DNA from: Microbacterium sp.
GTDB taxonomy: Bacteria; Actinomycetota; Actinomycetes; Actinomycetales; Microbacteriaceae
Assembly (NCBI GenBank): GCA_031177765.1
Contig: JAPSKH010000001.1
Span: 45,917 to 109,916, forward strand
Direction: 5' to 3'
DNA length: 64,000 nucleotides
Shown: one piece after another, positions 51,657-59,303 of the stretch
How positions within the stretch are numbered: position 1 is the first letter of the stretch
How the letters are laid out: each line of letters opens with the position of its first letter
The notes under the pieces: model-generated
The model's database searches: none
Told to the model about the DNA's origin: nothing
What the model saw: the letters and a program-made list of their open reading frames with translations, nothing else
Position numbers and translations under genes: made by a program

Positions 51657-53741
51657 TCAGGCGTCGATGCGCTCGCGTGCGAGCCGGTCGCTGGAGTCGA
51701 TGATGAACTCCTTGCGCGGGGCGACGTCGTTGCCCATGAGCAGCTCGAAGACCGACGACGCCGCCTCGGCGTCCTGCATGCGGACCCGGCGCAGGGTGCG
51801 GCCGGCACGGTCCATCGTGGTCGTCGCCAGCTGGTCGGCATCCATCTCGCCCAGGCCCTTGTAGCGCTGCACCGGCTCCTGCCACCGCTTGCCGGCCTTG
51901 GAGAGCTTGGCCAGCAGTCCGTGCAGCTCCTGCTCGGAGTACGTGTAGATGGTGTCGTTGGGCTTGGACCCGGGGTTCATGACGACGACGCGATGCAGCG
52001 GCGGCACGGCGGCGAAGACGCGGCCTTCCTCGATGAGCGGGCGCATGTAGCGGAAGAACAGCGTGAGCAGCAGCGTGCGGATGTGCGCGCCGTCGACGTC
52101 GGCATCGCTCATCAGGATGATCTTGCCGTAGCGGGCTGCCTCGATGTCGAACGAGCGTCCGGATCCCGCTCCGATGACCTGGATGATGGCGGCGCACTCG
52201 GCGTTGGAGAGCATGTCGCTGATGGACGCCTTCTGGACGTTCAGGATCTTGCCGCGGATGGGAAGCAGCGCCTGATACTCGCTGTTGCGGGCGAGCTTGG
52301 CGGTCCCGAGGGCGGAGTCTCCCTCGACGATGAACAGCTCCGACTCCGCGACGTCGTTGGAGCGGCAGTCGGCGAGCTTGGCGGGGAGCGAGGACGACTC
52401 CAGTGCGTTCTTGCGGCGCTGGGTCTCCTTGTGCGTGCGCGCCGAGATGCGCGCCTTCATCTCGGAGACGACCTTGTCGAGCAGCAGTGCCGTCTGCGCC
52501 TTGTCGTCGCGCTTGGCGGAGGTGAACCGTGCGGTGAGCTCGCGCGTGACGACGTTCGCGACGATCTGGCGGACGGCCGGAGTGCCCAGCACCTCCTTCG
52601 TCTGCCCCTCGAACTGCGGCTCGGGCAGGCGCACCGTCAGGACGGCGGACAGCCCCGCGAGGATGTCGTCCTTCTCGAGCTTGTCGTTGCCGACCTTGAG
52701 CCTGCGGGCGTTCTGCTCGACCTGCGTGCGCAGCACCTTCATCAGGCCCTGCTCGAAGCCCTGCTGATGCGTGCCGCCCTTGGGCGTGGCGATGATGTTC
52801 ACGAACGAGCGCGTCATGGTCTCGTAGCCCGTGCCCCACCGCACCGCGATGTCGACGTGGCACTCGCGCTCGAGCTCGGTCGGGACCATGGCGCCCGAGG
52901 GCTGCAGCACGGGCACCGTCTCGGTGAAGGTGCCCGACCCGGTGAGTCGCCAGGTGTCGGTGATCGCCGCATCGGGCGCCAGGAAGTCGGCGAACTCCGA
53001 GATGCCGCCGTCATAGCGGAAGCTGGTCTCGACCGGACCTCCGCCATCGCCGTCGATGCCGCGCTCGTCGCGGATCACGATCTCGAGCCCGGGGACGAGG
53101 AACGCGGTCTGACGCGCGCGCTGCTCGAGCTCCTGGAGGTTGAACGCGGCGTCCTTGGTGAAGATCTGCCGGTCCGCCCAGTAGCGGATGCGGGTGCCCG
53201 TCACGCCCTTGGCGGTCCTGCCCGCCACGCGCAGCTCGGAGCTCTTCTCGAAGGGCGTGAACGGCGACGTGGGGTGCGGTCCGGCGAAGACGCCGGGCTC
53301 GCCCCGGTGGAACGACATCGCCCATGTCTTGCCGCCGCGGTCGACCTCGACGTCGAGCCGCTCCGACAGGGCGTTCACCACGGATGCGCCGACGCCGTGC
53401 AGGCCTCCCGAGGCCGCATACGAGCCGCCGCCGAACTTGCCGCCGGCGTGCAGCTTGGTGAAGACCACCTCGACGCCGGACAGCCCGGTCCGCGGTTCGA
53501 TGTCGACGGGGATGCCGCGCGCGCGGTCGCGCACCTCGACGCTGCCGTCGGCGTGCAGCACGATGTCGATGCGGGAGCCGTGGCCGGCGAGGGCCTCGTC
53601 GACGGAGTTGTCGATGATCTCCCAGAGGCAGTGCATCAGACCCCGCGAATCGGTGGATCCGATGTACATGCCGGGGCGCTTGCGGACCGCCTCGAGCCCC
53701 TCGAGCACCTGGAGATGATGGGCGGAGTACTCGGAGGTCAC
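51657..53741 (-). CDS. parE: DNA topoisomerase IV subunit B (ParE/GyrB family)
   Basis: VLEGLEAVRKRPGMYIGSTDSRGLMHCLWEIIDNSVDEALAGHG; FIVEGDSALGTAKLARN TOPRIM motif. Confidence 0.93.
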   Translation of the reverse strand: MTSEYSAHHLQVLEGLEAVRKRPGMYIGSTDSRGLMHCLWEIIDNSVDEALAGHGSRIDIVLHADGSVEVRDRARGIPVDIEPRTGLSGVEVVFTKLHAGGKFGGGSYAASGGLHGVGASVVNALSERLDVEVDRGGKTWAMSFHRGEPGVFAGPHPTSPFTPFEKSSELRVAGRTAKGVTGTRIRYWADRQIFTKDAAFNLQELEQRARQTAFLVPGLEIVIRDERGIDGDGGGPVETSFRYDGGISEFADFLAPDAAITDTWRLTGSGTFTETVPVLQPSGAMVPTELERECHVDIAVRWGTGYETMTRSFVNIIATPKGGTHQQGFEQGLMKVLRTQVEQNARRLKVGNDKLEKDDILAGLSAVLTVRLPEPQFEGQTKEVLGTPAVRQIVANVVTRELTARFTSAKRDDKAQTALLLDKVVSEMKARISARTHKETQRRKNALESSSLPAKLADCRSNDVAESELFIVEGDSALGTAKLARNSEYQALLPIRGKILNVQKASISDMLSNAECAAIIQVIGAGSGRSFDIEAARYGKIILMSDADVDGAHIRTLLLTLFFRYMRPLIEEGRVFAAVPPLHRVVVMNPGSKPNDTIYTYSEQELHGLLAKLSKAGKRWQEPVQRYKGLGEMDADQLATTTMDRAGRTLRRVRMQDAEAASSVFELLMGNDVAPRKEFIIDSSDRLARERIDA

Positions 53742-53910
53742 AATCTCCCATCGTAGGCGCGCCCGCCGACGGTCCCGCGCAGACACGCGTTCCCGGGCGC
53801 CGTCCGTACGCGCTGAGCGAAATCTTCCGGATCCCGGCATTCTCCCGCCTGGGGCGTGGTTGTATTTCATGACCCGAAACGGAGTTCTACGCATACGAGG
53901 AGGCACCGAG

Positions 53911-54135
53911 ATGAACACGCTTTCGACGCAGCAGGAGAACGGCGCCGTCCTCGAGTACCGGCTCACCGCGGCGGACCGGTGCGACTCGTGCGGCGCGCAG
54001 GCCTACATCGCGGCCGAGGTCAACGGCAGCGAGCTGCTCTTCTGCGCCCACCACGGTCGCAAGTACGAAGAGAAGCTGCGTGCCGTCGCGTCGTCATGGC
54101 ACGACGAGACCGCGCGTCTGACCGAGTCGGCCTGA
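53911..54135 (+). CDS. Small zinc-binding-like actinobacterial protein (DUF7455-type)
   Basis: MNTLSTQQENGAVLEYRLTAADRCDSCGAQAYIAAEVNGSELLFCAHHGRKYEEKLRA: CxxC...CxHH pattern; GAGGAGG RBS. Confidence 0.85.
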   Translation: MNTLSTQQENGAVLEYRLTAADRCDSCGAQAYIAAEVNGSELLFCAHHGRKYEEKLRAVASSWHDETARLTESA

Positions 54136-54141
54136 CACCGG

Positions 54142-55179
54142 TCACGCAGCCCCGTACACGCGCGGGAGGAGCGGCGAGACGCGCACCGCGATCTCCTCGC
54201 CGATCGTCCCGATGAGCTCGGCGAGGTCGGTCGGCGAGCCCGCTCCCCCGCCGTAGACGGTGACCGTGTCGCCCACGGCGGCACCGGACCACGCCTCGAC
54301 CGAGGTCCACTCGCCGATGGCGAGGACGCGGCGCGGGCCCGCCGGTGTGCCGACCCACGCGCGCCCTGCCAGCGTCGACGGCAGTCCCTCGAGTGCGCCG
54401 ATGCCCACGGTGACCTCTCGGTCGCCGACCGCGATGACGTCGGCCTCCAATCGCCCCGCGGGCGCGAGACCCAGGGCCGCGGCGTCCGGGCCTCCGGCGG
54501 AGCGGATGCCGTAGCAGAACGCACCGACCCGGACCATGTCGTAACGGAACTCGGGGCGCGCGAAGGACGCCGCGCTCGCCGCCAGGTGACGCATCGCCGG
54601 CCGCAGGCCCGCGGCGGAGGCCTCGGCCAGCGCACGCTCGTATGCGACCCGCGCCGCGTCGTCCTCGTCGTCGGACGCCTCGGCGATGTGGCTCCACACC
54701 CCTGCGACCTCGATCGATCCTTCGGCTTGGAGCTGCGCCGCCCGAGCGACGAACGCCGGCCAGTGCTCCGGGCGCACGCCGTTGCGGTGCAGACCGGTGT
54801 CGATCTTCAGGTGCACGCGCGGCGTGCCGCCGGCCGCGGAGGCCGCGCGCGCGACATCCTCGAGCAGTGCCGCATCCCCGACGCCGATGTCGAGGTCCGC
54901 TGCGATCGCGTCGTCGATGTCGCCGCCGGTCGCGGCGATCCACGTGAAGATGCGGGGGGCATCGCCCAGCGCATCCCGCACCGCCCGCCCGGTGCGCACG
55001 TCGAACGCGCCGAACCAGGTGACGCCCTCGCGTGAGGCCGTCCGCACGACCTCCCGCAGGCCGTGCCCGTACGCGTCGTCCTTCACCACGAGCATCAGCT
55101 CGGACGGCGCGACGGTCGCTCGCACCCGCTCGATGTTGGCCGCCAGCTGCGCCAGATCCACGTGCAGTCGCGCGGTCAC
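54142..55179 (-). CDS. Alanine racemase-like protein A: complete barrel with PLP-Lys motif, degenerate C-terminal domain
   Basis: LMLVVKDDAYGHGLREVV, KIDTGLHRNGV, GVWSHIAEASD, FRYDMVRVGAFCYGIR; no VSYG.TY / cMD motifs in the C-terminal half. Confidence 0.88.
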   Translation of the reverse strand: MTARLHVDLAQLAANIERVRATVAPSELMLVVKDDAYGHGLREVVRTASREGVTWFGAFDVRTGRAVRDALGDAPRIFTWIAATGGDIDDAIAADLDIGVGDAALLEDVARAASAAGGTPRVHLKIDTGLHRNGVRPEHWPAFVARAAQLQAEGSIEVAGVWSHIAEASDDEDDAARVAYERALAEASAAGLRPAMRHLAASAASFARPEFRYDMVRVGAFCYGIRSAGGPDAAALGLAPAGRLEADVIAVGDREVTVGIGALEGLPSTLAGRAWVGTPAGPRRVLAIGEWTSVEAWSGAAVGDTVTVYGGGAGSPTDLAELIGTIGEEIAVRVSPLLPRVYGAA

Positions 55180-55865
55180 GGCGCCACCTCCCGGATCGCC
55201 CTCAGGCCCACGGCGGCGACGAGCTCCGCCGGAAGCATCCCGGTCGCCGCGACCCACTCCGCCAAGGAGGGCTCCCCGCGACCGGCCTCTCCCAGGAACA
55301 CCGCCTGGTCGCCGCGCGCGACAGGGACGTCGGCGACGTCCACCACGCACACGTCCATCGCGACGCGTCCGACGATCCGCTGACGCGACCCGCGGATCGT
55401 CACGTCGGCGACGTTGCCCAGCGCGCGGACGACGCCCTGCGCGTAGCCGCCGGTCACGAGGGCGACGCGCGTGTCGCGCGGTGCCCGGTAGGAGTAGCCG
55501 TACGAGACGCCCTCGCCCGCCCGGAGCTCCTTGACCGAGAGCACCGTCCCGTGCAGGCGCAGCACCGGGCAGGCGTCCGCGGCGCCGCCGGGCAGCCCGA
55601 ACAGGGTGCGGGGGTCGACGTCGCGGACCGCACCGCCGCTGGGCGCGAAGGTGAAGCCTTCACCGTCGAGGACACCGCGCACCAGGTCCTCACCGTGCCC
55701 CCACGCGTCGGCGCGGAGCAGGCGCGCCGAGAACGAGCGACCCCCCGCGTGCCCGGCGATGCGGGCGTTGCGAATGAGGGCGCTCCGCGAGACCCGGGCG
55801 ACGGGGGCGCTGCGCGGAACGGATCGGTCCGCCGGCGTATCGCACCCAGAGATCGCCGAACCCAC
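55176..55865 (-). CDS. Alanine racemase-like protein B: truncated N-terminal part, intact C-terminal domain
   Basis: VSRSALIRNARIAGHAGGRSFSARLLRADAWGHGEDLVRGVL (Arg in place of PLP-Lys), then GEGVSYGYSYRAPRDTRVALVTGGYAQG...IVGRVAMDVCVVDV; GTGA overlap with the downstream racemase gene. Confidence 0.85.
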   Translation of the reverse strand: MGSAISGCDTPADRSVPRSAPVARVSRSALIRNARIAGHAGGRSFSARLLRADAWGHGEDLVRGVLDGEGFTFAPSGGAVRDVDPRTLFGLPGGAADACPVLRLHGTVLSVKELRAGEGVSYGYSYRAPRDTRVALVTGGYAQGVVRALGNVADVTIRGSRQRIVGRVAMDVCVVDVADVPVARGDQAVFLGEAGRGEPSLAEWVAATGMLPAELVAAVGLRAIREVAP

Positions 55866-55910: not shown

Positions 55911-56933
55911 ATGCCATCCTCAGGCCTGGGCCTCGCGCCTCGCCTCCGCTACCTCGCCGGCCGAGCACGCCGCATCGACGTCGGCTCCGTCCTCGAGCGC
56001 GCCAGGGAGACCTCGCGCCAGCACGGCAAGTGGATGCCGGCGATCCTGGTGGACATGCTGTGGTCGGCGGGATTCCGTCAGGTCGGATTCCAGGACTACG
56101 TCGACTACGACTTCGCGATCCTCAGCCGCGCCGAGCGCGAGACGTTCATGACGCATCCGGTGTCCAACCAGCTCTCGCAGAAGTACGACCACCCCGACCA
56201 CCGCCATCTCTTCCAGGACAAGGTGGAGTTCGACCGGGTCTTCAGCGCGTTCCTGCGCCGCGAGTGGATGGTGGTCGAGGAGGACAACGCGGACGCCGTC
56301 CGCGCCTTCGCCGAGCGACACGGAACGATCGTGACGAAGGAGCCCGTCGGCCAGGCCGGCACCGGCGTCCATCGGTATCACGCCGCCGACGTCGAGGACT
56401 GGGATGCCTTCCACCGGGGGCTGCGTCAGCGCGGGGAACTGCTCATCGAGGAGGTCATCCGCCAGCACGACGACCTCGCCGCGGTGTGCCCTGGGACGGT
56501 CAATACGACGCGGGTGACGGCGTTCTTCGATGGTCAGCAGACCCACATCCTGGCGATGGCGCAGAAGTTCGGCCGCGGCGCGGTGAGCGACCAGATGACC
56601 TTCGGCGGCTTCTACACGATGCTCGACGACGACGGGCACGCCGTCGGGCCCGGCTACGACTCGCACGGCCACGTGCACGAGCGCCATCCCGATTCCGGCT
56701 TCGTGATCGCCGACTTCCAGCTGCCGATGGTGGAGCAGGTCAAGGCGTTCGTGGACCAGGTGGCGCGCGTCGTTCCGCAGGTGCAGTACGTCGGGTGGGA
56801 CATCGTCGTCACTGCGGACGGGCCCGTCCTGGTCGAAGGCAACTGGGGGGCGGGCGTGTACGAGAACAAGCCGAGCGTGACGGGCATCCGCACGGGCCAC
56901 AAGCCGCGGTATCGCGCAGCCATCGGATTCTGA
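55911..56933 (+). CDS. ATP-grasp domain protein (sugar-transfer-associated ATP-grasp type)
   Basis: IVTKEPVGQAGTGVHRY, LLIEEVIRQHDDLAAVCPGTVNTTRVTAFF, YVGWDIVVTADGPVLVEGNWGAG. Confidence 0.85.
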   Translation: MPSSGLGLAPRLRYLAGRARRIDVGSVLERARETSRQHGKWMPAILVDMLWSAGFRQVGFQDYVDYDFAILSRAERETFMTHPVSNQLSQKYDHPDHRHLFQDKVEFDRVFSAFLRREWMVVEEDNADAVRAFAERHGTIVTKEPVGQAGTGVHRYHAADVEDWDAFHRGLRQRGELLIEEVIRQHDDLAAVCPGTVNTTRVTAFFDGQQTHILAMAQKFGRGAVSDQMTFGGFYTMLDDDGHAVGPGYDSHGHVHERHPDSGFVIADFQLPMVEQVKAFVDQVARVVPQVQYVGWDIVVTADGPVLVEGNWGAGVYENKPSVTGIRTGHKPRYRAAIGF

Positions 56934-56986: not shown

Positions 56987-57678
56987 TCAGATCTCGCGGA
57001 CGATGCCCAGCGGCGTCGACTCGTGACCCTGCCCCAACGGATTGTCTCTGAGGATCGTCACGAGGCGGCGCTCGCCGGCCTTGTCGAGCGTGGAACCGAG
57101 GATGTTGCCGCCGATGTCGTTGATGTCGACCACGGCGACCTCGGCCCGCACCGGAAGCAGGCGCTGCACGCGCTGGGCGACCTCGCGCGGCTTCTCGGGA
57201 CCGAGGACGACCGCCGTGTTGTACGGCGGGATCGTGTGCGACGTCGGCCCGTCGATCGAGCGCGCCTTGTAGCCGGCGACGCGGTAGAAGTCGCCGCGGC
57301 GGCCGAACAGCTTGGTGACGGCCGAGACGGCGGCGGCGAGAAGGATCCGCGGCGTGCCGCACTCCCGCAGAGCCATCTCCATCGTCTCGGGCATGCCCAG
57401 CCCGATGCCGTAGCTGGTGCGCGTGACGTATCTCGAGAGGAAGCGCGCCAGGCGCCGCGGCCGGATCTCGTCGAGCTGGTACGACCTGCCCTGGGTGATC
57501 GCCACGATCTTCTCGGTGACGAAGAGCAGGTCGCCCTCGCGCACCACGTCGGCGGCGTACTCGCGCACGATGCCGTCGAGGTCATCACCGGGCATCACGA
57601 CACGGGTGCGGATCGGGATGCGGGCGTACGACGAGCCGTCGACGTGGACGGTGAGCGCCTTGCCGGCGTTCGCCTCGC

Positions 57679-57682
<4 letters not shown>
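56987..57682 (-). CDS. CofE-like (coenzyme F420-0:L-glutamate ligase domain) protein
   Basis: [66 protein letters not shown] overlap with rpoD. Confidence 0.8.
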
Positions 57683-59073
<1,391 letters not shown>

Positions 59074-59154
59074 GTTTCGCCTTTCACCGACGCCGCGGGT
59101 CCCGCGCTGTCGGTCGATTTCGGACACTAGTAAGACCCTTGTCAAGTCCACGGG

Positions 59155-59172
59155 CGTTCGCGTACGCGAACG
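59155..59172. promoter_or_regulatory. 18-bp perfect palindrome CGTTCGCGTACGCGAACG upstream of rpoD
   Basis: Self-complementary; flanked on both sides by outward-facing TTGACA hexamers (59145-59140 minus, 59179-59184 plus). Confidence 0.5.
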
Positions 59173-59303
59173 AAGTGGTTGACAACGGGTCAGGGCATCC
59201 AGTATCTCATACTCGTCGTGCGCCGCCAGCATCCCCTGAACCGGCGTGGGCGCACCATACCTTCCGAATGTTGCAACGCGCCACCCGGCCGCGGAATTCC
59301 GCG

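Follow-up and report, generated by a model that had tools for sequence, protein, structure and literature searches.

Two overlapping genes resemble different parts of an alanine racemase

Can two adjacent genes, each encoding an incomplete alanine racemase (Alr), make one enzyme between them? The question is raised by a locus in a Microbacterium sp. genome (a 2.2-Mb draft, 73% complete), from which we analysed a window of 64,000 nucleotides. The two genes, alrB and alrA, have the features listed below; BsAlr is the B. stearothermophilus enzyme, and counts refer to the family-wide set described in the next section.

55176..55865, (-): AlrB, 229 aa; a remnant of the first part of the barrel, followed by a complete C-terminal domain that carries the Tyr face
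54142..55179, (-): AlrA, 345 aa; complete fold-III barrel that carries the PLP-Lys face, followed by a degenerate C-terminal domain
55176..55179, (-): GTGA overlap of the AlrB stop (TGA) and the AlrA start (GTG), read from the sequence
55713..55715, (-): AlrB Arg51, at the position of the PLP lysine (K39 in 0/103 AlrB)
55500..55502, (-): AlrB Tyr122, BsAlr Y265', the second catalytic base (103/103 AlrB)
55356..55358, (-): AlrB Met170, BsAlr M312' (103/103 AlrB)
55081..55083, (-): AlrA Lys33, BsAlr K39, the PLP lysine (103/103 AlrA)
54679..54681, (-): AlrA Glu167, three residues after BsAlr H166 (acidic in 102/103 AlrA; N, S or H in 21 canonical Alr)
54196..54198, (-): AlrA Glu328, at BsAlr Tyr354, a specificity residue (E/D in 100/101 AlrA; PMC3485190)

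The original prediction had the coordinates, lengths, motifs and overlap right. AlrA matched only the Pfam family Ala_racemase_N and AlrB only Ala_racemase_C, and neither chain reached the equivalog cut-off of 168 bits of TIGR00492 (NCBIfam; 132.7 bits for AlrA and 95.4 bits for AlrB). AlrB keeps the VSYG and AMD motifs and has Arg51 in place of the PLP lysine; AlrA has Lys33 and lacks both VSYG and the MD motif. In this pair the PLP lysine and the catalytic tyrosine are in separate chains, AlrA being without Tyr265 and AlrB without Lys39. Both chains have the Alr fold. Folded singly with AF2, AlrA gave a pLDDT of 95.3 and a Foldseek TM score of 0.94 to the alanine racemase 1vfs, and AlrB a pLDDT of 88.6 and a TM score of 0.77 to 1xfc; the top Foldseek matches of both were alanine racemases. 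A search for a separate canonical alr, which had been proposed as a check, found an intact gene of 377 aa in the same genome, away from the pair (C58:107357-108427).

Complementary loss of active-site residues in 103 pairs

To compare the two chains across the family, we collected from Microbacteriaceae 103 distinct pairs of neighbouring AlrB and AlrA, whose sequences are related and do not represent 103 independent events. Active-site positions were taken from a profile of the canonical Alr of the family, and BsAlr numbering was set by motif. The Lys face of AlrA was invariant at K39, Y43, K129, R136, H166 and R219 (103/103) and nearly so at S204 (102/103), and Tyr265 occurred in a single AlrA (L094). 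AlrB showed the reverse. Y265, R290 and M312 of the Tyr face were present in 103/103 and K39 in none; position 284 was Tyr in 95 and Phe in 8, and position 313 was Asp or Asn. Save for conservative changes, the catalytic set was complete in the 103 pairs when AlrA and AlrB were combined. Complementary loss could thus be shown residue by residue in the alignments, and the pattern is far beyond chance.

The genes were on the same strand in 103/103 pairs and, in 102, lay in the order AlrB then AlrA, abutting or nearly so; the remaining pair is the mirror pair described below, with the reverse order. A second short Ala_racemase_C reading frame adjoined AlrA in many of 150 family genomes, and AlrA was detected at E <= 1e-50 in 166 of the 198 genomes of a Microbacterium sample. 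Named genomes with AlrA were mostly Microbacterium, including M. oxydans, M. trichothecenolyticum, M. yannicii and M. galbinum. Among the matches listed from a sample of about 147 genomes that belong to the order's other families, we found no split pair outside Microbacteriaceae. A description of a split alanine racemase was not found in the open-access literature.

The original prediction had named assembly or frameshift error and decay in relatives among the ways in which it could be wrong. Homologues in named isolates are about 40-74% identical, and the pair is therefore not an assembly error. Between close Microbacterium pairs, ω was 0.14 for the barrel of AlrA and 0.28 for its C-domain, and 0.17 for the C-domain of AlrB and 0.22 for its N-terminal remnant, the AlrB values coming from few pairs. 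Median values of 0.14-0.28 over all parts indicate purifying selection, tightest on the retained half of each chain, and thus exclude a pseudogene. That the pair is a frameshift, an assembly error or a decaying remnant has a negligible probability: the broken AlrA of M. elymi (L117/G239) would fit such an origin, and 103 distinct pairs in a fixed arrangement and under purifying selection stand against it.

Some single loci deserve mention. In M. elymi (L117/L221), AlrA is broken into several frames, by either a sequencing error in this one genome or real decay. A metagenome bin (L116:5446-7092) has an apparent in-frame AlrB-AlrA fusion, which is real or due to a one-base error at the overlap; we dropped it as a proxy for the AB complex when alignments placed AlrB rows on the AlrA half. 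One Microbacterium genome (G307) has two AlrA copies (L225, G307:C1:2018000-2029000, and G307:C1:2964972-2965979). Two assemblies titled Planococcus sp. APC 4015 (L103) and Frigoribacterium sp. JB110 (L104) carry Microbacterium-like AlrB-AlrA loci and are possibly misnamed or contaminated.

Probable precursors of the pair and a second, mirror-image split

Related lineages contain two adjacent intact alr copies at 15 loci. In a tree of the barrel, AlrA clustered with the downstream-type copy of these tandem pairs, which belong to other genera (support 0.98); AlrB fell with the upstream copy and was less well supported. Several AlrB (L011, L108, L144-L148 and L151) keep a long stretch of the barrel without Lys39 and look like full-length intermediates. 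Both results agree with the duplication that had been predicted as the origin of the pair. Split AlrA were interleaved with intact copies in the tree, which makes repeated origins of the split probable.

The tandem copies also bear on whether AlrA might act alone, with altered chemistry such as another fold-III PLP reaction, AlrB being a regulator or chaperone. Other fold-III PLP enzymes function without Tyr265, and AlrA folds confidently by itself. Yet intact AlrA-type copies have the whole Tyr face within their own chain, and AlrB retains exactly the residues that AlrA has lost (265, 284, 290 and 312), as a regulator need not. We consider action of AlrA alone very unlikely.

A mirror-image split was found at a second locus in two genomes of one genus (L227, G141:C1:1762657-1764452; L228, G077:C2:172012-173822). 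Its upstream chain A', of canonical type, has retained Lys39 and Tyr354, and its residues 265, 290 and 312 are Ser or Ala, Pro and Ser, respectively; the downstream chain B' has retained the Tyr face, and its residue 39 is Thr. Searches of both genomes with both Pfam domains found no intact alr. A split enzyme would therefore make the D-Ala of these cells if an Alr is its source. D-Ala supply in G141 and G077 thus probably needs a split enzyme, though another source is conceivable.

Near-perfect complementarity, tandem precursors and intermediates, and the mirror split together make it very likely that AlrA and AlrB form a composite heterodimer. The original prediction had gone further: the heterodimer was to be obligate, with Lys(A) and Tyr(B) in its one site. 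Complementarity over 103 pairs and selection on the retained halves support this site; that the association is obligate is what we infer. The intact tandems, full-length intermediates, split pairs and mirror split offer a natural series in which the evolution of a homomer into an obligate heteromer can be tested.

Acidic residues in the putative substrate pocket

The substrate may also have changed, as the original prediction had allowed. The residue at 354 determines which substrates Alr, Lyr and Bar accept, and lysine racemases and broad-specificity racemases carry a different one there (PMC3485190); the layers of the Alr entryway have been described (PMC3146814). We located position 354 in the 'TINYE' motif. 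It was Glu in 75 and Asp in 25 of 101 AlrA, and Tyr in 18 and His in 3 of 21 canonical Alr. The Tyr that marks alanine-specific racemases is thus missing from 100 of 101 AlrA, and the sole Tyr354 of the AlrA class is that of the mirror pair. At the third residue after His166, Glu or Asp was present in 102/103 AlrA and in 0/21 canonical Alr; we found no role described for this second acidic position in the literature consulted. Acidic residues account for two of the differences that most clearly set AlrA apart from canonical Alr. Intact AlrA-type tandem copies likewise have Glu or Asp at 354 and an acidic residue at His166+3; at L166 the acidic residue is in the opposite member of the tandem, in accord with the tree. 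Lyr and Bar are without Lys129 and have an Asn beside the PLP Arg instead; AlrA differs from them, with Lys129 present in 103/103.

Together, Glu or Asp at 354 and the acidic residue near His166 point to a substrate with a cationic side chain, and a diamino acid (giving D-Orn, D-Dab or D-Lys) is the probable one. The predicted change of substrate has in this way gained evidence from sequence comparison. The composite site might instead have kept alanine (or serine) as its substrate, which would make the pair a second alanine racemase or one for particular conditions. The fold and the catalytic residues are those of Alr, and the mirror pair of G141/G077, with its Tyr354, is probably an alanine enzyme. 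Against this reading, 100 of 101 AlrA have E or D at 354 and a second acid is fixed, neither being found in canonical Alr, and a canonical alr is already present in the genome. We regard it as unlikely, and a cationic diamino acid remains the preferred substrate.

A proposed composite enzyme

In the model that we propose, the ancestors of AlrA and AlrB were full-length alanine racemase paralogues arranged in tandem, and the two chains would pair head-to-tail as is usual in Alr. AlrA would contribute PLP, Lys39, Arg136, His166, Ser204 and Arg219, and the C-domain of AlrB Tyr265', Tyr284', Arg290' and Met312'. The heterodimer would keep one complete site, the reciprocal site being dead. Conserved acids in or beside the AlrA pocket (354 and His166+3) would select a cationic diamino acid and not alanine, which would be left to the separate canonical Alr. 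The reaction would be L- to D-ornithine in Microbacterium and would yield D-Dab or D-Lys in relatives. The D-diamino acid would enter a B2-type interpeptide bridge, with the neighbouring ligases joining it to the α-carboxyl of D-Glu. This explanation as a whole, an obligate heterodimer with a diamino substrate that is used in the bridge, seems to us likely.

The model has its closest relatives among homodimeric Alr (1sft, 1vfs, 1xfc), which share the fold, the PLP lysine, the Lys-face residues (with AlrA) and the Tyr-face residues (with AlrB), and in which the C-domain of one chain completes the site of the other, as we propose for the pair. In contrast to the homodimers, the residues of AlrA and AlrB are divided over two non-identical chains, there would be one site and not two, and Tyr354 is replaced by Glu or Asp. 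Lyr, Bar and BsrV (4dza, 4dyj, 4beu) have the same fold as AlrA and a residue other than Tyr at 354, which has been tied to large or basic substrates (PMC3485190). They differ from the pair in being homodimers, in lacking the Lys129 that AlrA keeps and in having Thr or Ala at 354 where AlrA has Glu or Asp. Deoxyhypusine synthase and the AdoMetDC 'prozyme' of trypanosomatids are likewise reported to have arisen by duplication and to form heteromers with a catalytically dead paralogue (PMC3663545, PMC5201418). Unlike these eukaryotic enzymes of unrelated folds, AlrA and AlrB are both degenerate, hold reciprocal halves of one site and have a mirror-image second case. With a heterodimer of this kind, the two faces of an Alr-type site could be mutated independently of one another.

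Genes next to the pair and the type of cell wall

The pair is sited between parE and the gene for the primary sigma factor, with the following neighbours.

51657..53750, (-): ParE/GyrB-type topoisomerase subunit, syntenic flank
53860-54135, (+): small conserved ORF of 91 aa in the gap between parE and alrA, found in almost all family loci examined
55911..56933, (+): ATP-grasp ligase (Pfam ATPgrasp_ST, PF14397), divergent neighbour and candidate peptide-bond ligase; conserved beside the pair, with MurT-GatD instead in other lineages
56990..57682, (-): F420-0:gamma-glutamyl-ligase-like protein (PF01996), under the CofE equivalog cut-off
57679..59232, (-): primary sigma factor, syntenic flank

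For the three genes, no match to defence-system families was found. Among 95 pair loci with enough sequence, 89 had some ligase-type neighbour: 38 had MurT/GatD relatives (named by NCBIfam models at scores under their cut-offs), 50 CofE-like and ATP-grasp genes and 1 both; 6 had neither. The orientation of the alr genes with respect to MurT-GatD is reversed in several genera. We also inspected 30 syntenic loci without the pair, drawn from 32 AlrA-negative genomes after leaving out G299 (incomplete, with an AlrA fragment) and G239 (M. elymi, with its broken AlrA). CofE-like genes were accompanied by one or two ATP-grasp genes at 29 of these and stood alone at 1, and MurT/GatD was found at none. 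The interval is likely a cell-wall bridge cassette.

B-type peptidoglycan bridges begin at the α-carboxyl of D-Glu, which MurT-GatD (lipid II isoglutaminyl synthase) amidates in the lipid II of other bacteria. MurT-GatD, a neighbour of the pair in much of the family, is possibly adapted here to bridge attachment. Lactic acid bacteria and enterococci build a D-amino acid wall bridge with aspartate racemase and D-aspartate ligase, an ATP-grasp enzyme. That system shares with our locus the placing of a racemase by an ATP-grasp gene; the racemase family, the amino acid and the attachment point differ.

We favour, with some reserve, a D-diamino acid of the B-type bridge as the product. The D-amino acid could also serve elsewhere, in another wall polymer, as a free signal or in catabolism. 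The family of the ATP-grasp neighbour is named 'sugar-transfer associated', and we found no enzymes for the D-diamino bridge of B-type walls described in the open-access literature. Use outside the bridge is nevertheless unlikely, because MurT-GatD stands beside the pair in much of the family and is swapped for ATP-grasp and CofE-like genes at one syntenic locus, which points to the D-Glu α-carboxyl. With use in the bridge, the pair and its neighbours would be candidate genes for a taxonomic character that is decades old.

Walls of Microbacteriaceae contain D-Orn, D-Dab or D-Lys (PMC10757982, PMC9603630, PMC7033078). The pair is present in the D-Orn species M. galbinum and M. oxydans. Two genomes (G207 and G294) that are nearest to M. 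arborescens by their Dps, judged against PDB 2yjj, which we take to be the Dps of that species, have no pair at the corresponding syntenic locus. L-Lys is given for M. arborescens (PMC10757982), and this correlation with wall type is one of a single marker and a few named species. M. enclense, reported to have L-Lys (PMC10757982), carries the pair (L093), which is evidence against a strict link between the pair and a D-diamino wall. For the widest form of the proposal, we see the balance as only slightly favourable: a family-wide and repeatedly evolved reciprocal degeneration that turned a homodimeric PLP racemase into an obligate heterodimer, which has one composite site, acts on a new diamino substrate and supplies the B-type bridge, with a mirror split taking over essential D-alanine in one genus.

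Across loci L187-L222, the contents of the parE-sigA interval alternate between the pair with MurT-GatD, the pair with ATP-grasp and CofE-like genes, one ATP-grasp gene and two ATP-grasp genes.
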